Origin: Escallonia rubra
Lineage: Eukaryota > Streptophyta > Magnoliopsida > Escalloniales > Escalloniaceae
Direction of reading: 5' to 3'
Assembly (NCBI GenBank): GCA_033065855.1
Contig: JAVXUO010002326.1
Span: 1,178,001 to 1,242,000 of the forward strand
DNA length: 64,000 nt
Each line of letters opens with the position of its first letter. Position 1 is the first letter of the stretch. The position numbers and the translations under genes are program-made. This document shows positions 21,892-58,614 of this stretch, piece by piece. The notes under the pieces are model-generated. The model saw nothing but the letters and a program-made list of their open reading frames with translations, ran no database searches and was not told the DNA's origin.

Positions 21892-24800
21892 ATGGCCTTT
21901 TTCAAGAAATCCTTCAAGTCTAACGGTTCGTACAAGATTCCTGCTGAAACCCACGAACACATACCAATACTCTCCGATCCCAACGGCAATAGTCGCCCGG
22001 TGAGAACATCGTCGTTAGATCCTGACGATGTTGTTATCAAGATTGAAGGTGAAGATTCGCCGCCGTCAAAGCTTATTGGTCGTTTCGCGAAGCAGCAGGA
22101 GGAGGGCAATGGCGAGATGTCGTTTGATGCCGATTTCGAGATGGGCGACTTTCGTGATTTCCATAACCCTAAGGATTTTGTTTCGAAACCTCAGGCTCCG
22201 AGTAGTATGAATGGCGGACGTGATAAACACGACAATAACGCTGATGCTTCCATCGGTGACGATGAAGGTGAAATCCAAGAACAAAAAGATAATAGCAGGT
22301 TCCCATACATGTCTCCTGCTTCTGAAGGGAACAACGGTTCTGGTGAGAAGTCAACAGAATTACTGCTTTGTTTGTATGCTTTTGTAATGGTTGTGCTACA
22401 CATTCTTGATCAACTGTTTGCCGGTTTGTTAGATTCTTGTTTGCTTGATAAGGTTGATCCATTAATGTGACTGGTCGTAGGCCATCTTTTGTTTTTTGCT
22501 ATATATGTATGGGCTTTGTTTCCTTGTAAAGACAACTGATGTATTATGCTTCTTGTAAAAGGCACAATAACCATGCTACTTCTCTGAGAGTTCGAATGCC
22601 GCCATTTGGCCTGGATTAGATGAACTCAATTTGGTATGTGCCTTCATGGTTTTCTTTTTCTGGGATAATAATGAATGTTTATGGTTTGAACTTGCTTGCA
22701 TTTGCCTTTCCTTAATATCATGCTAGACCTGCATTGCATCCAACATTGGAGGTAGGTTTTTGTGGTGCTAAGTTCCACTCCAGAGTTTCCATTACAGAAT
22801 ATGCATTTTCTTATACACTTCACAACCTCTTCACCTAAGTTTCTCACCGTGTTGCACTAGCCGCTTTTATATTTATTCTTGATGATCTAATGCAACTGTT
22901 TGGCATGCTGCGGTTTATTTATTCGGTTAATATTCTCTACTTAGCCATATTTGAATGATACTCGCTACTTAACCATCTTCAAATGACAGGATTTAGGAGA
23001 GAAACTATTCTGTCAAGGTCGAAAACCAAGTCCAGATTAGAGGACCCAGTAGAAATGACGGATAGGAGGTCAGGAAGAATGGGAATTTCGAATCAGAACA
23101 AGTCTGGGACGTTAGCTAAATCAGGACAGGTAGATGAAGAAGATGATTTCTTGCTAGAGGAAGATATTCCCGACAACTATAAGAATATCGAGAATCTTAA
23201 TGCCTTGACATTGATTCAATGGGTCAGCCTGGCTTTTATCGTGATCGCTTTGGTGTGTACACTTTCAATATCTAAGTGGATGGAAAAAGATTTACGCGGA
23301 CTTGAGATGTGGAAATGGGAGGTCTTGGTTCTTGTTCTGATATGTGGCTGGCTGGTGTCTGGTTGGGGGGTTAGAGTAGTTGTTTTTTGTATCGAGCGAA
23401 ACTTTGTTTTGCGCAAGAAGGTTCTTTATTTTGTGTATGGGGTGAGGAACGCTGTTCAGAATTGCATTTGGCTGGGCCTTGTTTTGCTTGCCTGGCATTT
23501 GATGTTTCACAAGGAGGTTGAAGGTAGCATTAAGTTCCTCAGAAATGTGGACAGCATAATGTTGTGTATGTTGGTGAGTACATTGCTATGGCTAGGTAAG
23601 ACCCTCTTGGTTAAGGTCCTAGCCTCGTCATTCCACGTTAGCACTTTCTTTGACCGCATTCAGGAATCATTGTTTAACCAATATGTGATTGAAACGCTAT
23701 CTGGCCCGCCTTTGATCGAAGCACGCAAGAATAGAGAAGAAGAGGCCAAGACCATGGCCGAGGTTTCCAACTTTGAAAGTGCAGGGAGTAAAGTGTCAGC
23801 TGAAATCAAAGCAACTACCTTAGAATTCACCAAGAGTCCGAGGGTGAGAGCAGCTAGAGTAACAAGCACCCGGAACTCTGGAGCACTGACTTCCAAGAAA
23901 CAAGATGATGGGATACCAATTGACCACTTGCAAAAGCTAAATCCCAAAAATATTTCTGCCTGGAACATGAAGAGGTGGATGAATGTAGTTCGCCATGGAG
24001 TCATGTCTACCCTGGATGAGCAGATACTAGATTCAGCACACGAGGATGATTCCACAAGGCATATTAGAAGTGAATTTGAGGCGAAAGTTGCAGCTAGGAA
24101 GATATTCCGGAATGTAGCCAAGGCAGACTCGAAGTAAATTTTCATGCATTTTGCCTTTAAAATACATTTTCCCTATACATTCACATTTCCCTGTCATCCT
24201 CTTGTTTTTCCAGTCTGGTTGTATATAATATTAATTCTGGTAAACCAACGCATTCAGATATTAGTAGTACAAGCAAATGCTACTTTTAGAGGAAACTATA
24301 AAGTATTGTAAATGAATTTTGCAGCAATTTCACACCTCGTAAATACCAATTGTTGATTGTCCCCAAATACTTGGTTCTTCGTTGCCATATTTTGCTAGAG
24401 GATTTCTTAGTTTCTAAATTTTGTTTCTAGTCATCATGGTTTCCTTGTCCAACCATACACTTCATACAGTCATGAGTTATATTGATCATATACATCTGAT
24501 AGGTTCATATATCTGGAAGACCTCTTGCGGTACTTGGAGGAAAAAGAGGCATTGAAGACCATGAGTCTCTTGGAAGGATCATCTGAATGTGAACAAATCA
24601 ACAAGTCATCCCTGAAGAACTGGGTGGTAAGGCTCTTGGGATTATTATTGATTTTGAGTATTTCACGTAAAAACGCATGCTCTCTCTCCCCCCTCCCCAG
24701 CCCTGACATATTGGTGGGTGATGACTTTCGTAATTGTAACATCCTGCAATATATATTGTTTGACGATTTAATACACTTGATTCTCGTAGGTCAAAGCTTT

Positions 24801-25886
24801 TAGTGAACGAAGGGCACTTGCCTTGACATTGAACGATACAAAAACCGCTGTAAAAAAGCTTCATAAGATGGTGAACGTGTTAGTTTCCATTGTCGCTGTG
24901 GTTATATGCCTCGGCATACTAGGTGTCCAAACGAGGAAAATACTACCTTTTATCACCTCTCAGTTCCTCGTCGTGGCATTTATCTTCGGAAACACTCTGA
25001 AGACATTATTTGAAGCGATAATCTTCTTATTCGTGATGCATCCGTTTGATGTGGGTGATCGGTGTGAAATAGATGGAGTTCAGGTACCTAAACACGTTCT
25101 TGTAACTTTGACTTATGTTTTACGTTATAATATATTACTTGTATATTGAACCTGATCCAGCGTTTTACTAATTTTCAGATGATTGTGGAAGAGATGAGTA
25201 TTTTGACTACAACCTTTCTGAGATATGACAGCCAAAAGATCATGTTTCCAAATAGTACTCTTGCAACAAAGCCCATCAGTAATTACAATCGTAGTCCGGA
25301 TATGGGTGACTCAATTGATTTCTTTGTCCATATTGCAACTCCAGAAGAGAAGGTTTCTATCATAAAAGAAAGAATAACAAGGTATTTGTGTCTGAAACAT
25401 CTTGCCTTTTCTATTCTGCTGCATTTGTTGTTGGTATCAATTACCCTCATGTGCTCAAAGTAACTATACCTGTCAAATAAATTTTGCATGCACTGCATAT
25501 ACCAATCTACAGTTTTGCATCTGCTACAAGTTTTAATCCGAATCAAGAAATGGTCTCACATGATAAAATTAAGCCTAGGTATTTAACGTTGTTGCATCTG
25601 CAGTTACATCGAGAGCAAGAATGATCACTGGCATCCAGCTCCAACGATTGTGGTGATGAACTTCGTGGGGCTAAACATACTGAAGATGTCTCTGTGGCCG
25701 AAGCATAGAATGAACCACCAAGACATGGGAGAGAAATTTGCAAGGAGGACCCTTCTGATAGAAGAGATAGTCAAAATCTTTAAAGAACTCGACTTTGAAT
25801 ATCATTTGCGCCCCATTGACATCCATGTTCGTTCCCTCCCTCCTATGGAATCCTCCCAGTTGGCCTCCTCCTGGACAATCTGCTGA
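21892..25886 (+). CDS. MscS-like mechanosensitive ion channel (MSL10 group), 6 exons
   Basis: Exons are 21892-22342, 22990-24133, 24503-24626, 24790-25083, 25179-25381 and 25604-25886, giving 2,499 nt (832 aa). MSL proteins of this group are plasma-membrane channels opened by membrane tension and conducting mainly anions. The cytosolic N-terminus is acidic and basic in patches and starts MAFFKKSFKSNGSYK. Six membrane segments are visible: LTLIQWVSLAFIVIALVC; WKWEVLVLVLICGWLVSGW; YFVYGVRNAVQNCIWLGLVL; SIMLCMLVSTLLWLGKTLLV; VNVLVSIVAVVICLGILGV; and the pore helix FLVVAFIFGNTLKTLFEAII. After the pore comes the MscS beta-domain start (MHPFDVGDRCEIDGVQ) and the C-terminal mixed domain ending SSQLASSWTIC. 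The start at 21892 is preferred over an in-frame ATG at 21841, as the protein there matches the family. All splice joins keep frame. The gene appears intact and is the source of the broken copy downstream. Confidence 0.93.
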
Positions 25887-26800
25887 ACAAGTATGAAACA
25901 AAGTTTGGAAAAGATTTCATTAAGTTGGACGTCGCTCGATTACGTACACATAAGAGGCGTTAAATTTTCTAGGTTCTAATTCAACTCCCATTTCAGTATA
26001 AAAGTTTGGAAAGGTTTCCAAACCATTGTCAAGATTTGGGACTTTGCTTTACATTTCTAGTGAGGTTTGTATCCCATACTATACTAAAGTGTTACTCATC
26101 GCTCACTCTCCACAGTATAAAATAGCTCATAGGTTTACTGCTAACGGTTTGCATCTCTCTCCCCGCACAATATTCCCAGTTTATAGCTAATAGTAGTAGT
26201 TATTTCTTGCATGAAGGAGAGAGTGTTACCGCGACTCTCTTTTGTAGCTAGTACATTGATTTAGGGACATTGTTATGTTCATGATTTTGTATACCCGTAT
26301 GACATGTTTTATACATAACCAATATGCCGTTGCTTCCGTCATTTTCTTAGCCGCGATGCAAGACAAGGATGGAGGAAAGGAATTGAGCATATCTCCAAGG
26401 AGTTCGAGATGGGTTCGTATTCTACTGGAAATGCTATAAAAGCAGGGCTAGGTTTGTACTCTCACATTAGGAGCTTTTCCATCCCATCTAGGAGAGGATT
26501 CAGATTTATGAGAGTAGAAGACCTAGCACACCATTAACATGGTCGAAGGTGGCAAATCAACATCGATATAGTCATATTTTACAATCACGTTAGATCACTT
26601 GTATTTGTTTATGTAAATATTCTAACACAATAAACTCTACACCATTAGTAGAAGAAGATAAACTTCTGTGATTCCATAAAAAAGCCCTAACAATGGGGCC
26701 AAGGAATCGGAAAAACTTATGTGATTCAATAAGCACTCTTGTTTTTGTTTTTTTTTTGTTTCTGTTGATTTTGGGATCACTAATCACGATATATATATAT
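25887..26800 (+). other. 3' flank of the MSL gene, shared with the pseudogene copy
   Basis: This contains the 3' UTR and downstream DNA. Much of it is repeated at 30740-31640 downstream of the MSL pseudogene (for example the blocks AAAGTTTGGAAAGGTTTCCA, ATGACATGTTTTATACATAA and the stretch near CAATGGGGCCAAGGAATC), so the duplicated unit extends at least ~0.9 kb past the stop codon. No other gene is seen. Confidence 0.7.
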
Positions 26801-28293: not shown

Positions 28294-30506
28294 TGGAATA
28301 CTACCCTGGATGAATAGATACTGGATTTAGCACACGAGGATGATTCCACAAGGCAGATTAGAAGTGAATTTGAGGCGAAAGTTGCAGCTAGGAAGATATT
28401 CCGGAATGTAGCCAAGGCAGACTCCAAGTAAATTTTCATGCATTTTTCCTTCAAAATATACCTTTTCCCTCTACATTCACATTTTCCATATCATCCTCTT
28501 GTTTTTCCAGTCTGGTTGTTTATAAAATTTATTCTACTCTAAGGTAAACCAACGCATTCAGATGTTAGTAGTACAAGCAAATGCTACTTTTAGAGGAAAC
28601 TAAGCTATTGTAAAAGAATATTGCAGCAATTGCTCACCTCTCCTGAGCATTTTTTTTCTTTGGCAAATGCGCAATATAATTTTCCAAAGTTGCCAATTCA
28701 TTACTGAGGCTAAGTACCAACTGTTGATTGTCCCCCAAATACTTGGTTCTTCGTTTCCATAAAATATTCTTCCATAAGATTTCTTAATTTCCAAATTTTG
28801 TTTCTAGTCATCATGGTTTCTTTGTCCAACCATACACTTCATATGCTTCTGGCAAGTTCATCTGTATTGAAGACCTCAAGCAGTTCTTGCAGGAAAAAGA
28901 GGCATTGAAGACCATGAGTCTCTTGGAAGGATCATCTGAATGTGAAAAAATCAGCAAGTCATCCCTAAAGAACTGGGTGGTAAGGCTCTAGGGATTATTG
29001 ATTTTGAGTATTTTCACATAAAAACGCTTGCTCTTTCTCCCCCTCTCCTCCTCCTCACACACGCACCCCCACGCCCCGCCCCTGCGTTGACATCTTGGTG
29101 ATGACTTTCGTAATTTTAACATCCTGCAACATTTATTGTTTGGATTTAGTATACTTGATTCTCGTAGGTCAAAACTTTTAGTGAACGAAGGGCGCTTGCA
29201 TTGGCATTGAACGATACAAAAAACGCTGTAAAAAAGCTTCATAAGATGGTGAATGTGTTAGTTTCCATTATCACTGTGGTTATATGCCTCGACATACTAG
29301 GTGTCCAAACGAGGAAAATACTACCTTTTATCAGCTCTCAGTTCCTCGTCGTGGCATTTATCTTTGGAAACACTCTGAAGACCATATTTGAAGCGATAAT
29401 CTTCTTATTCGTGATGCATCCATTTGATGTGGGTGATCGGTGTGAAATAGATGGTGTTCAGGTACCTAAACACGTTCTTGTAACTTTGACTTATGTGTCA
29501 TGTTATTATATGTTACTCGTATATTGAACCTGATCCTGCGTTTTACTAATTTTTTAGATGATTGTGGAAGAGATGAGTATTTTGACTACAACCTTTCTGA
29601 GATACGACAGCGAAAATATCACTTTTCCAAATAGTACTCTTGCAACAATCAAGATTGCTTGAGTGCCTTGGCCAAATGAAGCTTCGGCTATTTATACTAG
29701 TCCACCTCTCAACGGACGGTGGAGATGCATTTCATCATACGGTTCGTATTCCGTCTTTAGAAGTTTTTAAGTATTTACAAGATTTTCTATCATTCTAGAA
29801 CTTTCTCTAGAGCTATCTCTTATGTACAAGAAGAGTATAAAATATTCTGGAGACCTTGTCCATTCATCGCCTCGTAAGCGTCCATTAGGCGCCCATCGGT
29901 AATTACAATCGTATTCCGGATATGTGTGACTCAGTTGATTTCTATGTCCATACTGTAACTCCACAAGAGAAGATTTCTATCATAAAGGAAAGAATAACAA
30001 GGTATTTATGTATGAAATATCTTGCCTTTTCTGTTCTGCTGCATTTGTTGTTGGTATCAAACACCCTCATGTGCTCAAAGTCGCTATACCTGTCATATAA
30101 ATTTTGCATGCACTGCATATACCAATCTACAATTTTGCATCTGCTACAAGATTTAATCCGAATCAAGAAATGGTCCCACATGATAAAATTAAGCCTAGGT
30201 ATCTAACGTTGTTGCATCTGCGGTTACATTGAGAGCAAGAAGGATCACTGGCATCCAGCTCCAACGATTGTGGTGATGAACTTGGTGGGGCTAAACATGC
30301 TGAAGATGTCTCTATGGCCGAAGCATAGAATGGACCACCAAGACATGGGAGAGAAATTTGCAAGAAGGACCCTTCTGATAGAAGAGATGGTTAAAATCTT
30401 TAAAGAACTTGACATTGAATATAGTTTGCGCCCCATAGACATCAATGTTCGTTCCCTCCCTGCTATGGAATCCTCCCAGTTGGCCTCCTCCTGGACAATC
30501 TGCTAA
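28294..30506 (+). pseudogene. 5'-truncated MSL channel pseudogene (tandem copy)
   Basis: The copy starts inside exon 2 of the MSL gene and has exon equivalents at 28301-28427, 28857-28979, 29168-29461, 29558-30001 (interrupted) and 30224-30506. Many breaks are visible: a TAG replaces a CAG codon shortly after the junction (LDE*ILD, near 28314); all sequence for the first four membrane segments is missing; about 240 bp of unrelated sequence (29649-29890) is inserted in exon 5; the acceptor of the last intron is CGG rather than CAG (30221-30223); and exon 3 has lost its first base at the acceptor. The pore-helix exon is still open and well conserved. It could be transcribed from the upstream duplicate but cannot make a channel. 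Confidence 0.9.
29649..29890 (+). mobile_element. Unidentified ~240-bp insertion in pseudo-exon 5
   Basis: Compared with the intact gene, the sequence between TGCAACAA and GCCCATC is replaced by about 240 bp with no coding potential. It includes a TATTTATACTAG stretch and a TCTAGAACTTTCTCTAGA near-palindrome. I see no clean target duplication; it may be a retroelement LTR fragment or other filler. Confidence 0.55.
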
Positions 30507-32704
30507 ACAAGTATGGAAAGGTCAAATTTTATACTGTAGCAAGTTAATATGCATCTCTTCTCCCCCCTCCTTTAATGGTTTTTTCATCTTCCTACTAGGT
30601 GTTTTCAATTATCCAATTTAGGCAGCTCAGTGTTCATGTGTATTTTGGTAAATTGTAGAAATTGTTTTTCAACGAAAAAAGCGTTTTCCTTGCTACACCG
30701 ATGCTAGCATGTCCTGTCGTCTTTAAATGTGTATAGAAGATTTCATCAAGTTGGACGTCACTCGATTAAACATAAGAGGCATTAGATTTGCTAGGTTCTA
30801 ATTCAACTCCCATTTCAGCATAAAAGTTTGGAAAGGTTTCCAAACCATTTTCAAGTTTTTGGACTTTGCTTTACATTTCTAGTGAGGTTTGTACCCCATG
30901 CTATACTAAAGTGTTACTCTCTCTCTCTCTCTTTCTCTATCTCTCTCTCTCTCTCTAAAGTATAAATTAGCTAATAGGCTTACTGCTAATGGTTTGCAAC
31001 TCTCTCCACGTGCAATCTCGGTTTATAGCTAATAGTAGTTATTTCTTGCATGAAGAAGAGAGTGTTACCGCGCGACCCTCTCTTTTATAGCTAGTAGATT
31101 GATTTAGGGACATTGTTAAGTTCAAGATTTTGTATACCCGTATGACATGTTTTGTACATAACCAATATGCCATTGCTTCGTCTTTTTCTTAGCCGCGATG
31201 CAAGACAAGGATGGAGGAAAGTGATTGATCATATCTCCTAGGAGTTCGAAATGGTTTCGTGTTCTACTAGAAATGCTATAAAAGCAGGGTTAGGTTTGTA
31301 CTCTCACATTATGAGCTTTTCCATCCGATCTAGGAGAACATTCAGATTTACGAGAATAGAAGACCTAGCTGACCATTGACATGGTCGAAGGTGGCAAATC
31401 AACATATATTCAGTCATGTTTTATAATCACGTTAGATCACTTGTATTTGTTTATGTAAATATTCTAACACAATAAACTCTACACCATTAGTTGGAGATGG
31501 AACCGTGATTCCATAAAAAAGGCCCTAACAATGGGGTCAAAGAATCAGAAAAACTTCTGTGATTCAATAAGCTCTCTTGTTTTGTTTTGTTTTGTTTTTT
31601 TGTTTGTTTCTCTTGATTTTGAGATGACTCAATCACGATCTAGTTGAAGTTTTTCTGCGGTTTGTTAAAATTAAAAACTTGTCCCTTAACTGTGCTGGAA
31701 GTTGAGAAGGTTACTCGATAAAAGCAAGCAAACTCCTAACTTTCCAGAGAGTTCCTATAAAATATATATCACACTATACCATAATAATTATTATGCTAAG
31801 TTGACTAAGAATTTATATCGAAGCAAGAAATACGAATTGTGCATTATTCCTTTTATAGTAAAGAGTAGTTAGTTTAAAGCTAACGTCACTACACTACACC
31901 AAAACTGGCCTATGATGACAAGAAGGCCTACGGTATAAAAGGAACCGTAGGTACAAGTTATGTATGCCTACGGTTCATATTGCACCGTGGCTATTCGTGC
32001 TGCTTCAGTTTGGAAGAACAGTCACATGGTCTATCTCTCTCTCTCTCTCTATCTCTCTCTCTGAGACTTGCCCAGTTGCCAAATACTCTCACCCACTCCC
32101 AGACAGGCAGACGGCATCACTCACCGGCGACGGGCGACGGGCGACAGAGACACACAGACACGGACACGGCAGGGGCTCCTCGAGTTGACTCTTTTTGGCA
32201 GAGCTCAGTTCAGATCTGGAACGAACAAGACAACGAGGGGATGACTTCACCGGTGGACTCGACTACCGAGGTCCGACTCCGTCTTCAAATTCAGATCTAG
32301 GACAACAATCGAAGAAGAAGCAGTGACCGGTGAAGGCGAGAACTCCACCGGCCAATAACCCTCCCCGGTGACGACGTGTTGATGAACGGTGACCTTAAAA
32401 GAAGCAGTGACGGCAGACTGATCAACGAGTGTCGACGGCGAGGCGAGGACTCTGGCGGCGGCGACTCGTTGACGACTGGTGCGGCAATAGTGCACCTTCC
32501 CCTGTCAGTCGAAATTTTTCTGGTTTCTCTCATTTCCCATGTCTGCGGCAACAGTGCACTTCCGATCTCCTTTTCAGCCTAATTAAGCCACTCCACATGT
32601 AACAATTCTCATTCAATTTCCAATTCCAATTTCAATTTACACTTTCTTCTTGTTCTTTCTGCGAATTTGTCCCGGTCTCTCTCTCTATTCGTGCTCTTGC
32701 AATC

Positions 32705-32956
32705 TTAGGCCAAGTTTCTACTAGGTCTTATACCTTTGCTAACCAGTAGTGGTGATGGCCAAGGTGGGTCGTCTGCTGCTACTGGCCAAAGCGACGATGA
32801 GCTCTCCACAAACCATATATAGCGAGCCATCCACTGCTCATGCTTCTCATGCATGGCTGCCTCGGGGAGAGAGCGAGATGTAGCGTGAGAAGCTAAGGTT
32901 ACCAAGATGAAGAGCATTGCAAAGCAGATGCACTGGTATTGGTTCTTGGAAGCCAT
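32705..32956 (-). pseudogene. Captured 5' piece of a papain-like cysteine protease gene
   Basis: The minus-strand frame begins MASKNQYQCICFAMLFILVT, a signal peptide, followed by LASHATSRSLPEAAMHEKHE and QWMARY, the start of the I29 inhibitor prodomain of SAG12-like cysteine proteases (HEQWMARYGRVY in the family). Similarity stops after MARY; the remaining residues to the stop at 32705 are unrelated, so the capture ends mid-exon. Upstream on the same strand there is a TATATAAAG-like box near 33033-33042, suggesting the promoter and leader came along. The open frame is 83 codons and could give a short secreted chimeric peptide; that is speculation. Confidence 0.8.
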
Positions 32957-33840
32957 GGTGGTAGTACTAGCAGATTAACTGATGAGTTGCAATGTTTGGT
33001 GGTATACGTACTTCAGCACTAATGTTGAGCTTTATATAGAAACTTTTTGTTTGTCTTTGAAAGAAATGATTTCTAACGTGCCTGATAAAATGCTTTGAGT
33101 CAAACATGTGCGATGATAGTGTAATTTGAAAGATGAGGTCTTGCTCTTTTCTACTTGTTTCTTTAAGTATAGACAGGTTCTCTGTCTTGTATTGAACTGG
33201 ATGTTCCTTTTGGCTGCAATTGCTTTCACCGTAGCTGTTCATTCATCCATGCATGCTGAGTGGCAAAGTCAGAGTAATGGAGGTTTAACGTTCATGATAC
33301 CAAAAAAATACAACAATAAGTGTTTGTAATGGCACGGAAAGTAAGCATGATAGCTACAACTGGGAAGAATAAACATGGAGAGCGAGTTATTGCCTCAAGA
33401 ATGAAAATTCATTTAGGCACGCTGAACATTCATTTAGTCTTTGAGGCACCTTGAACGTTCATTTTTCTATTTGTCTTTTTTCTTTTTGTTTCTAATCTTC
33501 TTCTAACGCAAAAGGGTCGTTCAATTGGTGGAGTAACAATTTCTGAGTGGTCAGTATCCTCACTAAATTCAAAGAATATGGAGTTTCTTTGAAATGTTGA
33601 AAGTTATGTGTTGCTTCAATGAGACACGGCAATGCGATGAAAATCTCCTTAGAAAACAAGGGATGAAGCCTTTGTACATCTGACCCTTGCTTGACCTTGC
33701 AATGCCGACAAGGTCATGTGGAGCAACCATTCACTTTCAGTTTCTGTACTTGAAACTGAAAATGCTCAGAATGTGTCATAACTCCTCTGATCACTGAATT
33801 GTTAGTAAAACCAACTACGCTTGCAAATTACTATTGAATC

Positions 33841-34050
33841 CTAATCATGATTGGGCAGAATATTGTGGTTCAGTCCCTCATGAATGTTATTCTTAGGGGA
33901 AGGGTTGCTTCTCTTTATCTTTTCCAAGGTCCCCGTGGGACTGGAAAGACATCAACTGCAAGAGTATTAGCTGCTGCTTTGAATTGTCTTGCCAGCAACA
34001 AAACTAAGCCTTGTGGGGTTTGTAGGGAATGTTCTGAGTCATTTTAGTGT
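33841..34050 (+). pseudogene. Captured STICHEL/DnaX-like ATPase fragment
   Basis: The frame reads IGQNIVVQSLMNVILRGRVA, then SLYLFQGPRGTGKTSTARVL and AAALNCLASNKTKPCGVCREC. It contains an intact Walker A motif (GPRGTGKTS) and the first cysteines of the zinc module typical of DNA polymerase III gamma/tau-like proteins. In plants the STICHEL family, involved in trichome branching, has this sequence. Only about 65 codons of a protein well over 1,000 residues are present, ending at TAG 34045-34047, so it is a captured fragment. Confidence 0.82.
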
Positions 34051-34857
34051 ACAGGGTTGCACCCCTGGCGCTTTCTTAGGAATAATTTTAGTAAATTATC
34101 AAAAAAATTGAAGTCTGAATTTGGAAGCTTAATTCATTCTTAACAAATCAATTGTCTATGAAATCTCGTAAAGCAATGTTGGTTTTCTGGTTTAAGTTTG
34201 CAGTCTCTTTTATGTATGGTTGATGTTATTCTTGCATTAGACGATTATTCTTCTCTTTCGTTAACTAGATGGTGGGCATATCATAGCTCTCAATTCAAGA
34301 GTTGATTAAGTTAGAATATTGTATACTGCGGGATCATGCTAAGTTGTTATAGAAGGTGCAAACAGGGTGCAACCTCTGTTCAACTTGATTATGAGGCAAT
34401 GCATGCAGATTGAATCCCAAGCATCCTTTCACTATTGCGTGGAGTGTGATTTGTCATTAATTGCTTCGCCAATATGGGGGTTAGATTGAATCCCAAGCAT
34501 CATTTTAGTGTACAGTGGTAGCATGGAAATGATTTTCGAAATATTTTTTTTTGACAAATAATGAGCTATGCCTACGGTAGTCGTAGGCATAGGTTGGGAA
34601 TAAAAATAAGAATACAGCTATGCCTACGGTAGTACCGTAGGCATAGCTGGGAATAAGTGGGTTTATACGAATTCGGCATAGGTATATAGGCTACGGTATA
34701 ACCGTAGGCATAACCTTCAACTCCGTAGGCATAGATCTAGGGCATCGCCACTTCTGGCTACGATATAGTACCGTAGGGATAGGCTATGCCTACGGGACAT
34801 GGCACCTATACCTACGGTACTGTACCGTAGGTATAGGCTGGTTTTCTTGTAGTGCTA

Positions 34858-36780: not shown

Positions 36781-37020
36781 TTATACCTCCTATTTTTATG
36801 AAGAGAAAAAGCAAATGACAAGGCCAGGGCAATAAAATATGAAAAATAGGTGTTGATAATGGTGGTGGTAATGCTTCGTGAATATGTGGTGTTGGTAAAT
36901 GTGGTGATGGCGACACGTGGCAATATGGCAGTCATGGTGGCGGTTGTAGTCCGGTGGATATGGGGATAGTTTTGGTGGATATGTAAGAGGTGGTTTGGCG
37001 GCGATCATGTGGTGGAGGTG

Positions 37021-40000
37021 TAGAGGTGTCAAACGGGCCGGGCGGCCCGCGGGCTGGCCCGACCCGGCCCGGTTCTGGCCCGGGCTGGCCCGGCCCCGTG
37101 GATGAACAGTAGCGGCCCGCACACATAGGGCCTGGGGCCTGGGCCTGGACCAGGCCTGAAGAATCTGGAAAAACGGCCCGGCCCGGCCCGGCCCGGATTT
37201 GGCCCGGGCTTGGCCCGGTTTTCTGGCCCGGTCTGCGGCCCGGATTTTGGCCCGGTTTTGGCCCGGTTTGGCCCCACATTTTTTGAATCTTTTGCTTTTC
37301 CCCCCCTTTCTTCTCCCCCTTTTCCAAACTTCCACTTTTACCCCCCCAACAGCTATATAACGGCTAGTTTGGGGGGTATTTTAGTCTAACCTATATTTTT
37401 CAACTCCTTTACACTCTTACCCTCCCCAACAACTATAAACGGATAGTTTGTAGGGGTATTTTGGTCTTTTGTGAAGTTTCTAAAATCTATAAATTCACAC
37501 CACTTCTCTCTAATTTTTCACACCAATCTTCTTACTCTCTTATTATTCTCACAACAAGCTTTGCTACTATTTTCCTCTCCAATTACTACTCTTGCTAATT
37601 ACTACTAGTATTTACTAATTAGTACTCTTGTTTATTAATTACTAGTCTTGCTAAATTCTTTTTAATTACTAACTCTCTAATATTTGTTACTCGTTCATTC
37701 TTTTAATTGTTATTTCTTATTACTACTCTTATACTTGTGTATTTAGTTACTCTTACAAATTTTAGCGTGAAATATGGCTGGAATATTGAAGAAAATGAGG
37801 CGTGTAACGTCATCACGAAAGAAATCATCATCATCGCAAGTACCACCACCAGCAGAAGCGCCAGCGCCACGGCCATCACAAACACCAATCCAAGCACCAA
37901 CACAACCATTCGTTCGTGGACGAATGAGTACAGGCTCTATGATAGATACTCAAGCCAATTGGGAGTTCAATCAAAACATTCCAGATTTTGAATACACACC
38001 TGATGAAGACCCCCCGCATTATAGTCAAGGACGCAGCTCGGTTGGGGAAGCTACTACTCAGTGGCATAATCTCAACCCTATGCCTGGTCATGATGAAGAA
38101 GGGCCGAGCAATGCCTCCGATAACGTGCCAGAAGTCCAGAAGGGGAAAAAGAAGAAAGCCGAGTGTTGGAATCATTTTGACGTAGTTACGGTGGACGACA
38201 CCAGAAAAGCTCAATGTAAGTACTGTCTTAAATTATTTTCGACTGGTAGTGGTAATGGACATCTTAACAGGCATTACCCTCAGTGTGCACCTCGACAAGG
38301 CCACGTCGAACCTACCCAAACGCAGTTATCTTTTGACGGTAAGTTATTTGTTTATAATCAGCGAGAGCAAAGAGACGGTCTCGCTGAATTTGTTATTCAT
38401 GATGAACAACCTTGTTCTTTTGCCGATAATCCTAAGTACTCTAGATATATGAACACATACGTCCAACCTTTGTACAAAAAGGTTACTAGAAACACAACTA
38501 GATCCGATGCACTCCGACAGTACAAGGCTGCTAAAGGACGCCTTATCGATTATTTCGATAAATTTGACGGTAAAGTTAGTCTTACTTCTGATATTTGGCA
38601 ATCTCCTTATACTTTTGTTAGTTATTCTTGTGTGACCGCTCATTGGATTGATGCAGATTGGGTTATGCACAAGAGAATCATCGCTTTCGAGCACTTCCCT
38701 TATCCGCACGATGGAATGAACATTGCTACTCTTATATTAAAAGCATGCAACACATTTAAAATTAAGGATAAGATTATGAGTGTTAGTTTTGATAATGCTT
38801 CTAATAATAAAGCTGCTGTTGCAGCTTTAAAGGAAACGCTTCAACCTGTACTTCATGGTGAAGTATTTCATGTTCGTTGTGTTTGTCACATTATTAATTT
38901 AATTGTTCAAGATGGTTTAGCTGCTGCAGGAGATATTCTGCTCAAACTGAGGGGTATGACAGCGTATGTTAATGGCTCGAGTTTGAGAACACAACAATTT
39001 AAAACGTTGTGTGTTCAATATAATATGCCTCGCAGGAGAGCAGTTACAGATGTGGTCCACAAGTGGAACTCTACATACCACATGCTTTTACACATTCTGG
39101 CATACCGAGAAGTCTACACGCATTTTCTACTAACCCAGTTCCCAGCCGGCTTGCCAACTCAAGAGGAATGGCAGATGGCCACATACCTAGCTGAATTTTT
39201 GGAGGTATTCTACACGTCTACCAATTTATTGTCTGGTACGTACTATCCCACCTCTCCTCTCGCTGTAATAGAAATTCTGAAGATGGCTACAATGTTAACA
39301 AAATGGAGATATATAGGACCCTTTAGGGAAATAGTACAAGTGATGGATCAAAAATTTAATAAATATTGGAGTAAACTGCCTGCTATTTTTACTGTGGCTA
39401 CTTGTTTAGATCCTAGGTTAAAGTTGCATGGCGTGAACGCCTAGATACATGAGATATCGAAATTAATGCACTACACAGCAGAGGACACAACCTTGCTCAC
39501 AGCAAAAGTGATCACAGCAAAAGTGAGCAAGAGGTTTGAGGACTTGTTCAACCTCTATCGTAATTCTGCTGACGTGCGCGGGCGAGCTACATCATCATCC
39601 ACTGCTGAGAGGTATTATGCGCCATACCTTCAAGGCTTTGAACATCTAGTAGCAAGACAACTACCAGGTGAAGGTACTTCTAATTCGGGAGGTTCGTATA
39701 ATTTTTCCTCTTTTAATGAGATTGGTGTATATTCAAATACTGATCATTATTCTGATTTATCAAGGCAAGAACATGTTAATTTTAATTTGTTAAATTTTTG
39801 GAAACAAAATCAAAACATGTATAAAACTTTATCCCAAATTGCACGGGATGTACTGCCAGTGCAAGCCTCCACGGTTGCTTCAGAGTCGGCATTTTCAGCA
39901 AGCGGGAGGGTTTTGGATGACAGGAGGAGTCGTCTTAACCCCGAGTCGCTCGAGCTATGTGTATGTTGGAAGGATTATCTTGATGCGAATTACCGCGAGC

Positions 40001-40789
40001 AAGATAAACCGATTGATGATAGGAAGAGCAGTGACTCGGATATTGAAATACTTCCGGATGATTAGGTAATTTGTTTTTATTTTCCTCTTTTGATCCTTTT
40101 GGTTGACGTTGCAGATTTCTTGATCTTTGATTGCTGATATTTTGGATAGACATGCATTATTATTTTGATTGTTAAAGTTTTAAGAATAAATTTTTTCACA
40201 AAATATACTTTTTTTCCATATATATAAAATAATTTTTTACAAGCAAGATATATATTTTTTCGTATATATAAAAAAATAGGTAACTTCGCCTGTTTGTTTA
40301 CAAGCAGCCGGTCCCAAGCCCGGATAAAAGGAGGAGGGCCTATGAACACATTTATTATTTTTCTATATAAATTGTTATGTGTTAAGATTTTATTAATAAA
40401 GCTCACCAAGAAGAGTATGAAAATGTTTAACATATAATAAAAAAATATAATGGCTAACAAATATTATTATTATATACATACATACATATGTATATTACTT
40501 ATAATGAAATAAAAGGATAAAGATTAGGTTCGTTAAATTGTGAATATTGCCTAGAGGCTAGAGATGGAATTTAAAATTGAATAACAAGAAAAAAAAATTT
40601 TGGGCCTGGGCCCGGCCCTAGATATTGGGCCTAGGGCCAGGGCCTGGACTGGGCCTAGGTTTCCCTTCGGCAGGCCCGGCCTGGCCCGGCCCGGTTGGCA
40701 GCCCCACTGGCCCGGCCCCGGCCCGGCCCGACAGCAGGCCCGATGGGCTTGGGCTGGGCCGGCGCAAGCCCGGCCCTTTGACATCTCTA
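37021..40789 (+). mobile_element. hAT transposon, copy 1, with TIRs and 8-bp target duplication
   Basis: Ends are TAGAGGTGTCAAACGGGC at 37021 and, reverse-complemented, TAGAGATGTCAAAGGGC at 40789. The 8-bp direct repeat TGGAGGTG flanks it exactly (37013-37020 and 40790-40797), the hAT signature. Subterminal regions are dense in GGCCCGG / CCGGGCC words (37029-37275 and 40608-40778), a probable transposase-binding zone. The element is 3,769 bp and holds one transposase gene. It sits within a GTGG-rich repeat. Structurally complete, but its transposase carries a stop codon. Confidence 0.95.
37774..40065 (+). pseudogene. hAT transposase with BED zinc finger, copy 1, one nonsense codon
   Basis: The frame from ATG 37774 to TAG 40063-40065 has 764 codons and a single internal stop, TAG at 39442-39444 (codon 557), where copy 2 has TCG. 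Domains in order: a basic, Ser/Pro-rich N-terminus; a BED zinc finger (ECWNHFDVV..., C-x2-C at QCKYC, GHLNRHYPQC); the RNase H-like catalytic region (SLTSDIWQSPYTFVSYSCVT, SVSFDNASNNKAAV, HVRCVCHIINLIVQDGL); and, after the stop, the C-terminal hAT dimerisation domain (LLNFWKQNQNMYKTLSQIAR, ASTVASESAFSASGRVLDDR). A 15-bp tandem duplication (GTGATCACAGCAAAA) sits at about 39509-39523. The protein would bind the element ends and cut and join DNA. Read-through could in principle give a full product. Confidence 0.92.
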
Positions 40790-44999: not shown

Positions 45000-45847
45000 A
45001 TGGCATCAAGCAGTGAATTCCATCTTCTCAATTGTTTTGTATATGACTTTCTTGGTTTGTACTGGGATGGCATTTTCGTGGTGAGGAACTCAAAGCGTGC
45101 ACGAGTAGTGAGTTGAATATGTATTGTATCGTTGTGGAGAAAACATTTGATTATTAAATAAATAAATAAATTCCTACGCAGTTGTTTTTGGGTTAATTGT
45201 CATACTGCTCGTGAACATAAGCATAAACACAATTTACAATTCCCTGGGTTACTCAAAAACTGAAAGGAGATAAAGAAGTTTGCTTAGCAATACTTATTAG
45301 TTTAGAAGACCACCCTTTTTTTTTTTTTTAGTTAAACATGAAAATTTTCATATCATTGTCTTCTTGGTTATACGAGTAGTTAAGTTACTTTCTAAGAAGA
45401 GTATGCATAAAAGTTAACTAATAACCCCCATATCGAAACTGAATTAATAAATACGAGTCTTTGAACCTATTCCTTAATTGCAATAAGACCACGTTTGAAC
45501 AGTTGTCTAAAGCAGATTCAACAATATTGAACTAGAATTGTTTGGCTGTCTAGCAAGGGAAAGAACAGACTGCATTTCGCTTTTGATCTTTTGAACTTGT
45601 AACTAACAAATCTAGAAAGCTAAATTTCGCTTAAAAACAATACAAGTAACATGAAATAAAACTCGCCTTGATGGATCTAAATAACAAAAACTTAATATCA
45701 ATATCAATTTGTTGCACTTTTTTTTGTACACGAGCCAAGTCTACTCTATAGCCCCTCAAAAGTAGTCAAAACAGAAACTAGCTCCTTTGCCCAACGCTCA
45801 GAACTTGGAGGTAACTCCAAAGGCCCACTCTCTCGGAGATAGCTAGG
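45000..45847. other. 3' flank of the quinone oxidoreductase gene
   Basis: 3' UTR followed by AT-rich intergenic DNA up to the second hAT element. Nothing else recognisable. Confidence 0.5.
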
Positions 45848-46543
45848 TAGAGGTGTCAAACGGGCCGGGCGGCCCGTGGGCTGGCCCGACCCGGCCTAGT
45901 TCTGGCCCGGGCTGGCCCGGCCCCGTGGATGAACAGTAGCGGCCAGCGTGCAGAGGGCCTGGGCCTGGACCAGGCCTTCAAAATCTGGAAAACGGCCCGG
46001 CCCGGCCCGCTCTGCGGCCCAGTTATTTGGCCCGATTTTGGCCCCACTTTTTTGAATCTTTTGCTTTTCCCCCCCTTTCTTCCACCCATTTTCCAAACTT
46101 CCACTTTTACCCCCCCCAACAGCTATATAACGGCTAGTTTGGGGGGTATTTTAGTCTAACCTATATTTTTCAACTCCTTTACACTCTTACCCTCCCCAAC
46201 AACTATAAACGGATAGTTTGTAGGGGTATTTTGGTCTTTTGTGAAATTTCTAAAATCTATAAATTCACACCATTTCTCTCTAATTTTTCACACCAATCTT
46301 CTTACTCTCTTCTTACTCTCACAACAAGCTTTGCTACTATTTTCCTCTCCAATTACTACTCTTGCTAATTACTACTAGTATTTACTAATTAGTATTCTTG
46401 TTTATTAATTACTAGTCTTGCTAAATTCTTGTTAATTACTAACTCTTTTATATTTGTTACTTGTTCATTCGTTTAATTGTTATTTCTTATTACTACTCTT
46501 ATACTTGTGTATTTAGTTACTCTTACAAAGTTTAGCGTGAAAT

Positions 46544-48818
46544 ATGTCTGGATTATTGAAGAAAATTAGGCGTGCATCGTCATCACGAAAAACATCATCA
46601 TCATCGCAAGCACCACCTGGCACAAGCGCCAGCGCCACGGCCATCACAAACACCAATCGAAGCACCAACACAACCATTCTTTTCTTGACGAATGAGTACA
46701 GGCTCTATGATAGATACCCAAGCCAATTGGGAGTTCAATCAAAACATTCCAGATTTTGAATACACGCCTGATGAAGACCCCCCGCATTATAGTCAAGGAC
46801 GCAGCTCGGTTGGCGAAGCTACTACTCAGTGGCATAATCTCAACCCTATGCCTGGTCATGATGAAGAAGGGCCGAGCAATGCCTCCGATAACGTGCCAGA
46901 AGTCCAAAAGGGGAAAAAGAAGAAAGCCGAGTGTTGGAATCATTTCGACGTAGTTACGGTGGACGACATCCGAAAAGCTCGATGTAAGTACTGTCTTAAA
47001 TTATTTTCGACTGGTAGTGGTAATGGACATCTTAACAGGTATTACCCTCAGTGTGCACCTCGACAAGGCCACGTCGAACCTACCCAAACGCAGTTATCTT
47101 TTGACGGTAAGTTATTTGTTTATAATCAGCGAGAGCAAAGAGACGGTCTCGCTGAATTTGTTATTCATGATGAACAAGCCTTTTCTTTTGCCGATAATCC
47201 TAAGCACTCTAGATATATGAACACATACGTTAAAAAAAAAAAAAAAAAGGTTCATAGAAACACAACTAGATCCGATGCACTCCGACAGTACAAGGCTGCT
47301 AAAGCACGCCTTATCGATTATTTCGATAAATTTGACGGTAAAGTTAGTCTTACTTCTGATATTTGGCAATCTCCTTATACTTTTGTTAGTTATTCTTGTG
47401 TGACCGCTCATTGGATTGATGCAGATTGGGTTATGCACAAGAGAATCATCGCTTTCGAGCACTTCCCTTATCCGCACGATGGAATGAACATTGCTATTCT
47501 TATATTAAAAGCATGCACCACATTTAAAATTAAGGATAAGATTATGAGTGTTAGTTTTGATAATGCTTCTAATAATAAAGCTGTTGTTGCAGCTTTAAAG
47601 GAGACGCTTCAACCTGTACTTCATGGTGAATTATTTCATGTTCGCTGTGTTTGTCACATTATTAATTTAATTGGTCAAGATGGTTTAGCTGTTGCAGGAG
47701 ATATTCTGCTCAAAATGAGGGGTATGACAGCGTATGTTAATGGCTCGAGTTTGAGAACACAACAATTTAAAACGTTGTGTGTTCAATATAATATGCCTTA
47801 TAGGAGAGAAGTTATAGATGTTGTCTACAGGTGGAACTCTACATACCACATGCTTTTACACATCCTGGCATACCGAGAAGTCTATACGCATTTTCTACTA
47901 ACCCAGTTCCCAGCCGGCTTGCCAACTCAAGAGGAATGGCAGATGGCCACATACCTAGCTGAATTTTTGGAGGTATTCTACACGTCTACCAATTTATTGT
48001 CTGGTACGTACTATCCCACATCTCCTCTCGCTGTAATAGAAATTTTGAAGATGGCTACAATGTTAACAAAATAGAGATATATAGGACCCTTTAGGGAAAT
48101 AGTACAAGTGATGGATCAAAAATTTAATAAATATTGGAGTAAACTGCCTGCTATTTTTACTGTGGCTACTTGTTTAGATCCTAGGTTAAAGTTGCATGGC
48201 GTGAACGCCTCGATACAAGAGATATCGAAATTAATGCGCTACACAGCAGAGGACACAACCTTGCTCACAGCAAACGTGAGCAAGAGGTTTGAGGACTTGT
48301 TCAACCTCTATCGTAATTCTGCTGACGTGCACGGGCGAGCTACATCATCATCCACTGCTGAGAGGTATTATGCGCCATACCTTCAGGGCTTTGAACATCT
48401 AGTAGCAAGACAACTACCAGGTGAAGGTACTTCTAATTCGGGAGGTTCGTATACTTTTTCCTCTTTTAATGAGATTGGTGTATATTCAAATACTGATCAT
48501 TATTCTGATTTATCAAGGCAAGAACAGGTTAATTTTAATTTGTTAAATTTTTGGAAACAAAATCAAAACATGTATAAAACTTTATCCCAAATTGCACGGG
48601 ATGTACTGCCAGTGCAAGCCTCCACGGTTGCTTCAGAGTCGGCATTTTCAGCAAGCGGGAGAGTTTTGGATGACAGGAGGAGTCGTCTTAACCCCGAGTC
48701 GCTCGAGCTATGTGTATGTTGGAAGGATTATCTTGATGCGAAATACCGCGAGCAAGATAAACCGATTGATGATAGGAAGAGCAGTGACTCGGATATTGAA
48801 GTACTTCCGGATGATTAG
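46544..48818 (+). pseudogene. hAT transposase, copy 2, frameshift, nonsense and altered zinc finger
   Basis: The start codon at 46544 matches copy 1, but a net 2-bp loss near 46610-46622 shifts the frame, so the long frame is open from 46692. TGG of copy 1 (39304) is TAG here (48072-48074), splitting off the C-terminal dimerisation domain (frame resumes to 48818). In the BED finger the sequence is GHLNRYYPQC instead of GHLNRHYPQC, changing a likely zinc-ligand His to Tyr. At 47231-47248, 18 bases that encode QPLYK-type residues in copy 1 are replaced by T plus 17 A, giving a lysine run. Everything else is nearly identical to copy 1. Confidence 0.92.
47231..47248 (+). repeat. Poly(A) run replacing coding sequence in hAT copy 2
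   Basis: Where copy 1 has a mixed 18-base segment (CCAACCTTTGTACAAAAA), copy 2 has T followed by 17 A with no change of length, and the next few bases also differ (GGTTCATAG against GGTTACTAG). Confidence 0.85.
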
Positions 48819-49502
48819 GTAATTTGTTTTTATTTTCCTCTTTTGATCCTTTTGGTTGACTGACGTTGCAGATTTCTTGATCTTTGATTGCTGATATTTT
48901 GGATAGACATGCATTATTATTTTGATTGTTAGAGTTTTAAGAATAAATTTTTTCACAAAATATACTTTTTTTCCATATATATAAAATAAATTTTTACAAG
49001 CAAGATATATATTTTTTCGTATATATAAAAAAATAGGTAACTTCGCCTGTTTGTTTACAAGCAGCCGGTCCCAAGCCCGGATAAAAGAAGGAGGGCCTAT
49101 GAACACATTTATTATTTTTCTATATAAATTGTTATGTGTTAAGATTTTATTAATAAAGCTCACCAAGAAGAGTATGAAAATGTTTAACATATAATAAAAA
49201 ATATAATGGCTAACAAATAAATATGTATATACATACATACATATGTATATTACTTATAATGAAATAAAAGGATAAAGATTCGGTTCGTTAAATTGTGAAT
49301 ATCGCCGAGAGATGAAATTTAAAATTGAATAACAAGGAAAAAAAAAACAAAAGGGCCCGGGCCCGGCCCTAGATATTGGGCCTAGGGCCAGGGCCTGGAC
49401 TGGGCCTAGGTTTGCCTTCGGCAGGCCCGGCCCGGCCCGATTGGCAGCCTCACTGGCCCGGCCCCACAGCAGGCCCGATGGGCTTGGGCTTGGGCTAAGG
49501 CC

Positions 49503-51985: not shown

Positions 51986-52669
51986 TTTTACTACGGGTTA
52001 ATTACAAAACTGTCCCCTGAGGTTTACACGTTTTTGCACTTTGCCCCCTGTGTTTACAACTTTTGCAATACTGTCCCCCGAGGTTGACAAAACCATTGCA
52101 AACAGCTCCAAAATTGGACGTCCGTCCAATTTTGGGCGTTAAGTCGTCATGTGCACAGCACATGCCATTTTGGCATGGGCAAATTCGTAATTTTCATACC
52201 CATCTTCCCCACTCATCTCTTTCTCTGTTCATCTCTCTCTGCATCTCTTTCTCTGTTCATCTCTGCTACCAAAAGCACCACCAAGCTGCTCCACAACTGC
52301 TACCATCATTTTCACAACCCAAAACCCACTACACATATATACCTGCAAGCACACACACGACTCACACATTCTCACAAACCCACTACCTCGTGGCATAGCT
52401 GTTCCAACTTCCCTCAGCCATTTTCACCCCGCCAGCCACCTTACACTGTAAGTCTATTGTCGCCGGCAACCCCTCCCTCACCTCACCCCGCTGACAGCTC
52501 CCTCCCGCTGCAAAAAATGGTCTGAGGACAAAGGATAAGCAATGGTACACTTTGCTCCACAGTCTACATTTAGTTCCATTCTACGGCTGATTATCTTGCA
52601 ACTCGACTGATTTTTCTCAGTCTACATTATTCCCAAATGCACCATTGACGTTCAAATCCAAGCCATGAA

Positions 52670-53373: not shown

Positions 53374-53448
53374 CGGGGTGGGGTGAGGGAGGGGCTACCA
53401 GTGGGGTGGGGTGAGGGAGGGGCTACCAGCGGGGTGGGGTGAGGGACA
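53374..53448. repeat. G-rich tandem repeat, ~29 bp unit
   Basis: About 2.5 copies of GCGGGGTGGGGTGAGGGAGG plus a short CTACCA tail. One strand is strongly G-rich, with runs of three to five G, and could form a quadruplex. Confidence 0.8.
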
Positions 53449-53689
53449 GAGAAAGAGATGAGTGGGGAAGATGGGTATGAAAATTACGAATTTGTCCATG
53501 CCAAAATGGCATGTGCTCTGCACATGACGACTTAACGCCCAAAATTGGACGGACGTCCAATTTTGGAGCTGTTTGCAATGGTTTTGTCAACCTCGGAGGA
53601 CAATATTGTAAAAGTTGTAAACACAGGGGGCAAAGTGCAAAAACGTGTAAACCTCAGGGGACAGTTTTGTAATTAACCCTTTTACTATT

Positions 53690-56757: not shown

Positions 56758-58614
56758 AGAGGCAAGTGTTTGATTGATAGTTTTTTGTTTTGAGCTTTTT
56801 TATTTATTTATTTTCGTATATTCTCCTTCTCATATTTCTTTTTGCATCTAATGTCTTCACCACCAACTTAAACTGTCAAACTCACAATACCACCGCCCAT
56901 TGCCACACTAAAAACTAATTAACTGTCAGCTGACCTTCACCACCGCTGGCTACAACTTGGCTTTCGTCGCAACCGACAAAAACTAGGCCTCTGTAGTTAG
57001 ATCCAACATTATGGACCCTTAAAACTCCAGATCTCATGGTGGTAAAGTGGCGCCGGGCATATGAACTTGACGGTTGATCATGGTGGTGGTAGTGGCGAAA
57101 AAAATCATGGTGGCGACGATGGATATGAATAATTGATGGTCGTGGAACGAGAGAAATCAATGGTGGTGGCCTTGATATTTGCACAGCGATGGTGGGTTTA
57201 AATTAGGTGGCGCTAGTGGTTTTAATAACCGCCGATGGTGGTGTTCGTGTGTGGTGTGAGGGAGGGGAGGATGGTAACAACCTGCGGTACTGTGTGTTTA
57301 TGGTGGGGTAGGGAGGAGGGATGGTGGCACATGGTTGTCCTAACAGAAGACGGTGCTGTTGTGGGTTTGGGGGTGGTGGGGTGGGTAAGGTGGCTGTATG
57401 AAGGGGGTAGGTAGGGGCGGGGTTAGGAGGTGAATGGTGGCAGTGTTGGAAGAAATGGATTTTGTTAAAAGTGGCTCATGTATTGCTTCTAACAGAGTTT
57501 GAAGGTTGGATCTTAAAATAAAATCCAAAATTGAAAACTTGAAAATGGAGTTTTCAAAAGCAACCTTATTCTGAAAACTGGTTTATAAAACTAAAGGAAA
57601 AAAAAACAAAAACTACGTGCCAAGCAACGATACTTTTTTCAGGTTTGAAATTGAACAAAAAACTGAAAAAAAAATTAGTTTCAAACACTACCAAAGTAAG
57701 TTAGCTATGGAATTGTAGAAACAGAAAGCACAACTAGCCAGTAAGAGGCGTGAGTAGTGGAAAATAGTACAACACTACAATTCTCCGGCAATAGTAAAAA
57801 GGCTGCGGTAACAGTATACCTCCGGCAATTTACGATAATGCGAAGGATGATGAACAATTGGGTTATTCAACATATATTCTAGATCCCAACAAAAATAAAT
57901 CCCTTACCACAACAAAAATTAGAAATCACATACCTTATACGAGCAACTCGGCAAACTCTAAATACCCCCAAGTTACGCCACACGACTTATACCAAAATTC
58001 CCAACCAAAAGCATGCCTTGGGGCTGAAATGAAGAAGAAAATTGAAAGGGGCGGCAAGAGGAATGAGAGGGACATCTGGAAGAAGAAGAACTTTTTAAAT
58101 CATACCCTAATTGACAAATTACGCAAACACCCCCAAACTTAAGCCACTTATTCAAATCGCACAAAAACTTTTTTAATATTACGAAAATGCCAGAAACTTA
58201 TTTATTTGTTAGCTTTTTATCTATTTAAAGCAATAACATACCATAACTAAAAATGGGGTACTACAATGTATATTCGATTTATTTTCACATGCTTATGATC
58301 CTATGTAATGGTGAAACGGTTCATCCCTGGACACCAAACAATTCTTCCCAGGATAAGCTTTTGCCATTGAAAGTTGACTAATTTTTTACTTAGATTTTCA
58401 TCTTAGGCTTTTTTCAATAATGTATTTGCAGTGATTATAGTTCTATTACTTGAGATTATTGTTACCGTGGTATAGATTGTCATACCATGCAATCGAAAAG
58501 CAGGATATTCTTCTTTTTGATCGAGCAACAAAGGACAATTGCAACAGTTTTTTTACTACCTTTAATGATTTCAGCAATCAGGATGGGCTCAAATAAACTT
58601 CGCCATATGTGAAC
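56758..58614. other. Interior DNA between the inverted arms, GTGG-rich repeat then AT-rich
   Basis: At about 57060-57690 a GGTGGTGG-rich core followed by AAAATTGAAAACTTGAAAA resembles the probable MITE at 27477-27845. At 57773 CACTACAATTCTCCGGCAAT looks like a DNA-transposon tip without a partner. No gene. Confidence 0.4.

Follow-up and report, generated by a model that had tools for sequence, protein, structure and literature searches.

The DNA analysed here, referred to as the window, is a 64-kb stretch from Escallonia rubra (contig JAVXUO010002326.1). Positions 31892-34854 of the window are occupied by a transposable element of 2963 bp, which we identify as a non-autonomous CACTA element of the Pack-CACTA type. 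Its terminal inverted repeats (TIRs) start with CACTA, a 3-bp target site duplication (TSD) borders it, and both ends carry subterminal repeats in two orientations, all features of the CACTA (En/Spm) superfamily. The interior is accounted for by a leader, three host pieces and repair patches, and the open frames in the element all fall short of 120 aa. The host pieces come from a STICHEL-type gene, from a locus containing a DUF6825 exon and from a papain-type protease gene, and comparison of family copies allowed us to order their capture. Element coordinates, prefixed e, are the window position minus 31891. The locus is composed as follows.

31889-31891: left copy of the TSD, CTA
31892-31912, plus strand: left TIR, CACTACACCAAAACTGGCCTA
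31923-31999, plus strand: left subterminal repeats (CCTACGG motifs in both orientations)
32023-32719, plus strand: GC-rich 5′ leader with a CT tract, the family's own and not cargo
32705-32956, minus strand: chimeric open reading frame (ORF) of 83 aa, consisting of a signal-peptide-like start, the beginning of the pro-region, then antisense STICHEL
32720-32816, plus strand: captured STICHEL exon, first part, 97 bp, 97.9% identical to the STICHEL-like gene L049:1227-1323
32819-33833, minus strand: captured promoter, 5′ untranslated region and first 46 codons of a papain-type protease gene, 1015 bp, inside the STICHEL fragment
33032-33038, minus strand: TATA-box-like sequence of the captured promoter (consensus match only)
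33833-33847, plus strand: 15-nt filler where the protease block meets STICHEL, similar to 34409-34423 (e2518) of the element itself
33848-34047, plus strand: second part of the captured STICHEL exon, which contains Walker A; about 200 bp, 98.0% identical to L049:1499-1699
34044-34467, plus strand: third captured piece, 424 bp, part of a stretch that is 478 bp long in family copy L020
34468-34515, plus strand: repair patch where a deletion occurred, built of three short consecutive templated pieces (34468-34487, 34483-34501 and 34500-34515)
34564-34837, plus strand: right subterminal repeats, several of them perfect or near-perfect palindromes
34834-34854, minus strand: right TIR, CACTACAAGAAAACCAGCCTA
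34855-34857: right copy of the TSD, CTA

A Pack-CACTA element and its family

A first-pass annotation of this DNA had proposed a CACTA element holding pieces of unrelated host genes, and the ends, the copies and the donors described below bear this out. The ends, the CTA duplication and the dense subterminal repeats that it reported all stand above chance in the 64-kb window. A degenerate 21-nt terminus pattern (up to 3 mismatches), expected 0.01 times by chance, matched only at 31892-31912 on the plus strand and 34834-34854 on the minus strand. The subterminal motif TATGCCTACGGTA (up to 2 mismatches) had 11 matches in the window, all 11 within the element, and 100 shuffles gave a mean of 0.78 and a maximum of 3. 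Exact CCTACGG/CCGTAGG was found at 12 sites in the element and at one site in the rest of the window. The element is non-autonomous and multicopy, contains host coding DNA and combines common ends with a variable interior, as Pack-CACTA and other Pack-TYPE elements do. It is not a Pack-MULE; the hallmarks of that class are Mutator-type ends and a duplication of roughly 9 bp, and CACTA ends with 3-bp duplications are present instead. Rfam at gathering scores returned no match across the window. As a side observation, a ∼3-kb tandem duplication (24007-26793 and 28301-31642; four collinear pieces, 85-93% identical) stops ∼250 bp to the left of the element.

The genome searched was the window's own (566 Mb, 3222 contigs). 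With the whole element as query, the best 40 of 841 candidates were scored, and copy counts are therefore lower bounds. Besides the window we found at least 4 end-to-end copies, one with a diverged right part, together with many partial copies. Those on contigs C231, C2295 and C1111 matched e1-2963 in a single stretch at ∼97%, and in the fourth, on C2053, identity was 97% over e1-2627 and 87% at the right end. All 40 scored places (the best 40 of 189 candidates) matched the first 131 bp of the element.

Nineteen copies were compared, namely the window and 18 fetched family copies; two protease loci were fetched too. Both ends were resolved in 13 of the 19, and 12 of these 13 displayed identical 3-bp duplications, the remaining one (L014) having TTC/TTT with one mismatch. 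The right (3′) end of L020 was damaged, and no right end was found in the fetched stretch for L018, L024, L025, L026 and L028. The search for the same termini that the first-pass annotation had proposed recovered them on copies with different cargo and their own duplications. Pairwise differences among the window, L009, L010, L011 and most of L012 amounted to 1.2-2.1%, and right-hand parts differed wholesale among L012-L015. Other interiors were common to the pairs L014/L015 and L013/L023, pointing to exchange of parts between elements. Five reading frames of other family members, inspected as other cargo, gave no Pfam match above cut-off (the L025 frame reached Sugar_tr at E 0.003, below cut-off, and other matches were weaker). 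Matches to TNP2 (PF02992) exceeded the Pfam cut-off at 150 of 150 scored genome places (the best 150 of 2228 candidates), none of them linked to the ends of the element. One TNP2 transposase score was repeated at 38 of the 150 listed places, including C3, C6, C9, C29 and C33, and 28 of the 38 had a 761-aa open frame, which suggests a recent burst of another CACTA family.

The GC-rich block at 32070-32580 had been put forward as a possible further capture. We rejected this candidate, finding that the block belongs to a leader common to the family and related subfamilies. The interval e1-737 was matched in a single stretch by 22 copies including the window (one only to e736), and e132-818 was kept at 86-93% in three examined copies of related subfamilies, each with its own CACTA end ∼100 bp upstream. 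The block may resemble the GC-rich first exon of maize Spm.

Three host pieces and the probable order of their capture

The plus-strand Walker A segment had been assigned to a STICHEL-type gene. Domain matches and a parent gene are consistent with this assignment, and the description needed extension, as STICHEL sequence flanks the protease block on both sides. The Walker A stretch (63 aa) matched NCBIfam dnaX_nterm at E 5e-25 and 88 bits, short of the value of 250 that the model requires of whole proteins, and Pfam DNA_pol3_delta2 at E 3e-12, above cut-off; STICHEL is the name we take to be appropriate for this piece and for its parent gene. The second STICHEL block was present at 12 places in the genome, 11 of them element copies and one the parent on C2081, where a 743-aa open frame holds clamp-loader (DnaX-type) domains. 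Other genome matches to the 63-aa piece, at 4 places, were 47-57% identical. Uninterrupted STICHEL sequence was seen in copies L019-L022 and L024, its length being 878 bp in L024 and 477 bp in L019, L021 and L022, with the same right border.

Two donor genes had been postulated, and we found three donor loci, the third being the source of the piece at 34044-34467. With 34060-34467 as query, 7 genome places matched, 6 of them element copies and one the donor, C2784:76881-77288. The donor stretch sits upstream of a DUF6825 exon (E 3e-25) and downstream of another open frame, and from this placement it is probably intron sequence. In L020 the piece is flanked by a 9-bp repeat. We considered a transposon target duplication as its origin, against which the donor locus argues; judging from that locus, the repeat would rather be element sequence copied twice at the return switch.

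The minus-strand block, annotated as a cysteine-protease promoter with a signal-peptide exon, is 97.3% identical over 1015 bp to C142:120023-121035, an apparently intact papain-family gene, and 94.3% identical to a second gene at C142:147776-148804. C142 carries a protease gene cluster, two further genes of which matched nearly the whole block length at 82% and 81%. The open frames of the best donor, joined into a protein at a guessed splice point, contain a papain domain and an I29 pro-domain that both score above their cut-offs. The prepro stretch alone matched no family and no solved structure, the one hit in PDB being at chance level (E 1.1). Both parents expected by the first-pass annotation were located on other contigs, C2081 and C142. 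Neither an ancestral locus holding both fragments in the same order without CACTA ends nor a pair of ends from different elements turned up in the sequence searched. Where the protease block lies, 175 bp of STICHEL are missing between the 97-bp and about 200-bp parts. The nine placed copies of the block all match e1 continuously beyond e925, and thus all have the left part of STICHEL. Separately, only the inner 154-159 bp of the protease promoter block were found, at 97%, at C2521:44261-44419, C344:49915-50073 and C306:427989-428142; these may be more element derivatives or another repeat.

By parsimony, we infer that the STICHEL exon was acquired before the 478-bp C2784 stretch, and the protease promoter with its first codons last. 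STICHEL without protease is carried by L019, L021, L022 and L024. L020 adds the C2784 stretch, again without protease, and all three pieces, with STICHEL split, are found in the window, L009, L010, L011 and L012. This split indicates that the protease promoter was captured inside an exon captured earlier. L013, L014, L015 and L018 have the protease left joint in common and look like later rearranged derivatives. A parsimony argument also favours L020 as an intermediate over a recombinant, because the copy still has full STICHEL and the right-hand border of the C2784 piece, both absent in the protease-bearing copies. A competing reading of 34485-34515 as an uninterrupted copy of the STICHEL insertion site (28/30 matches, where none of 60 control positions of the same element exceeded 24/30) was overturned by this pedigree. 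With STICHEL as the oldest cargo, the empty-site reading was dropped, and repair fillers derived from e2516 and e2148 account better for the repeats there.

Joints and the mechanism of capture

The borders of the host pieces carry scars. At the STICHEL right border, alike in L021 and L024, 14 nt repeat the sequence 23 bp upstream, as seen by eye. The C2784 piece is entered at a common TTAG and left at a common TTC; 9-10 nt of the element are present twice there, and almost nothing was lost. The filler at the right end of the protease block has its first base in common with the protease end, and its identity to e2518 is 13/15 in the window and 14/15 in L009, a score reached by 0 of 4000 random window 15-mers. 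In the repair patch, piece one (20 nt) corresponds to the deleted region, which matches it exactly in L021 and L019 and at 19/20 in the tested L020 stretch. Pieces two and three are 19 nt from e2516 and 16 nt from e2148, after which native sequence resumes; short overlaps mark the switches. Random pieces matched pieces one, two and three equally well in 0, 0 and 1 of 2000 cases; these chance figures, like those for the filler, are lower limits, all pieces having been picked after inspection. L009 and L010 have the same patch, L011 has it with a single change, and L012 has it as far as the point where its right part diverges. In L013, e1845 is joined to e2088-2129 and then to e1994-2196.

Scarred joints of this kind are the expected trace of template switching in break or gap repair. 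We consider it likely that host pieces were captured serially by such repair inside the element, and that the product then spread. Breaks or gaps would arise inside the element, and the nascent strand would switch at microhomologies to other loci and then back, leaving short templated fillers at the joints. Transposition would multiply the product, with a TNP2-type transposase assumed to be supplied by another element. The donors of the three pieces lie on three other contigs (C2081, C142 and C2784).

Several points weigh against this explanation, in addition to the choice of filler and patch pieces after inspection. Plain end joining also yields templated fillers, and the fillers tell what kind of repair took place at the joints, not that cargo was copied during that repair. 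The window filler matches e2518 at only 13 positions, which 12 of 4000 random 15-mers equalled. The protease left joint displays, by eye, only a 4-nt TATA duplication, and the STICHEL donor has a similar TTTTAGGGA slightly downstream, an alternative source for part of the 14-nt repeat. No copy predating STICHEL capture was present among the copies compared, and L020, damaged at its 3′ end, could be a recombinant instead of an intermediate. Finally, no autonomous element with these ends was identified.

A different route to internal cargo is fusion: a host piece becomes flanked by insertions of two family elements, the inner ends of both are lost, and the whole then moves as one element. Fusion has been put forward for Pack-CACTA and applied to other Pack-TYPE elements as well, with stepwise insertions among the examples (PMC8903248), and internal cargo between conserved ends is what it predicts and what we observed. 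Fusion requires no fit between the element halves, yet the flanks are nearly continuous, with 175 bp missing at the protease block and 9-10 bp doubled at the C2784 piece in elements of roughly 2.3-2.8 kb. Such a fit, within 175 bp and 10 bp, disfavours fusion, and, as a rough argument, two independent deletion pairs are unlikely to meet so closely twice. Around the STICHEL and protease donors, BLAST of the fetched sequence returned neither the core nor the ends of the family, which precise excision could also explain, and the C2784 stretch contained no CACTA-end motif when exact motifs only were sought. The joint structure speaks against fusion for 2 of the 3 captures; we regard fusion as unlikely and, of the two models, consider gap filling through template switching more probable. 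The cargo might also have been assembled by recombination between different cargo-bearing family members without fresh genomic captures. A large family, to judge by the 5′ end counts above, and right-hand parts exchanged as wholes among L012-L015 would suit such a process. It is nevertheless improbable in view of the nine placed protease-block copies, all with the STICHEL left part, and the six matched C2784-stretch copies, all with STICHEL, counts that leave out the short protease-block matches on C2521, C344 and C306.

The captured promoter raises the further question of use by the plant. The TATA-like sequence starts 82 bp upstream of the ATG at 32956, from which the chimeric frame runs through a signal-peptide-like start into 97 nt of antisense STICHEL. 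The start codon sequence is present in 8 of the 9 protease-bearing copies, the block of L018 ending before it, and 5 of these 8 retain an open frame of 83 or 81 aa. A promoter, a start codon and an open frame in several copies would be consistent with a secreted chimeric peptide, or a STICHEL-antisense RNA, expressed from several loci and used by the host. In the other 3 of the 8 copies, however, the frame is shifted and short, and the pattern fits decay without selection equally well; we consider host use very improbable. Returning to template switching, we also advance, tentatively and with considerable doubt, a more specific proposal: that Pack-CACTA cargo here accumulates by serial microhomology-guided switching, even inside earlier cargo, and not by fusion, and that the last switch gave a mobile protease promoter and signal-peptide start reading antisense STICHEL from several loci.

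Related systems and other features of the window

For the pickup of host genes by cut-and-paste transposons, fusion has been proposed for plant Pack-CACTA (PMC8903248) and gap filling for animals (PMC8277862). A single family with donors, apparent intermediates and scarred joints makes the order of capture readable and the two models comparable at base level. Moreover, what was mobilised goes beyond exon pieces and includes a promoter with a start codon.

Gene capture by CACTA elements, which the first-pass annotation had supposed to be rarely documented, is better documented than that. Host fragments have been described in CACTA elements of soybean (PMC1947982), grapevine (PMC2528002), Chenopodium (PMC8978399), and Arabidopsis and maize (PMC8903248), and are reviewed in PMC13317346; one of these papers refers to Rubin and Levy for the capture mechanism (PMC8978399). 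Pack-CACTA of Arabidopsis and maize resembles the Escallonia element in non-autonomy, CACTA ends, 3-bp duplications and internal host fragments, and cargo in maize often derives from more than one locus (PMC8903248). The Escallonia element differs in that flank continuity and joint scars point to template switching and away from fusion, and in that one cargo lies inside an older one. Soybean Tgm-Express1 is likewise a CACTA element with several unrelated host fragments, five in its case; it is 5.7 kb long, resides in F3H intron 2 and has demonstrated chimeric transcripts (PMC1947982), whereas the Escallonia element is known from sequence, with donors and intermediates. Gap filling in animal Pack-TIRs involves, like the scheme favoured here, a break inside the element, a small internal gap (median 4.6% of element size) and breakpoint microhomology (at one or both breakpoints in 67.6%). 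There, 56.9% of unique cases lie within 15 kb of the parent (PMC8277862), in contrast to the donors on other contigs and several copies found here. Zm-Pack-PIF cluster 18 of maize also gained two gene pieces stepwise in one family, but it belongs to the PIF superfamily and was called compatible with fusion, and no capture inside earlier cargo is described for it in the portion covered (PMC8903248). Gene capture by CACTA elements is already known, as is stepwise capture from another superfamily; the Escallonia family stands out for an unusually complete pedigree and for joints that bear on an open question of mechanism. The portions of the literature on CACTA gene capture covered here describe no CACTA element in which one capture lies within an earlier one. 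Text searches for wording on nested or stepwise capture returned top results unrelated by title, and those for the protease peptide and the subterminal motif returned, respectively, nothing and only papers unrelated by title.

Elsewhere in the window, an apparent hAT element is present twice, at 37020-40758 and 45847-49493, with 93.8% identity between the copies over 3.7 kb. In the former, an open frame matched hAT-like RNase-H above cut-off, and the tested frame of the latter matched no family. An inverted, internally repetitive pair at 55299-56758 and 62200-63637 is 79% identical and overlaps long repeat-like open frames. A shorter inverted pair (51995-52228 and 53446-53679) is 97.9% identical over 234 bp, and the open frame between its arms matched TAXi_C and Asp (aspartyl protease) above cut-off.

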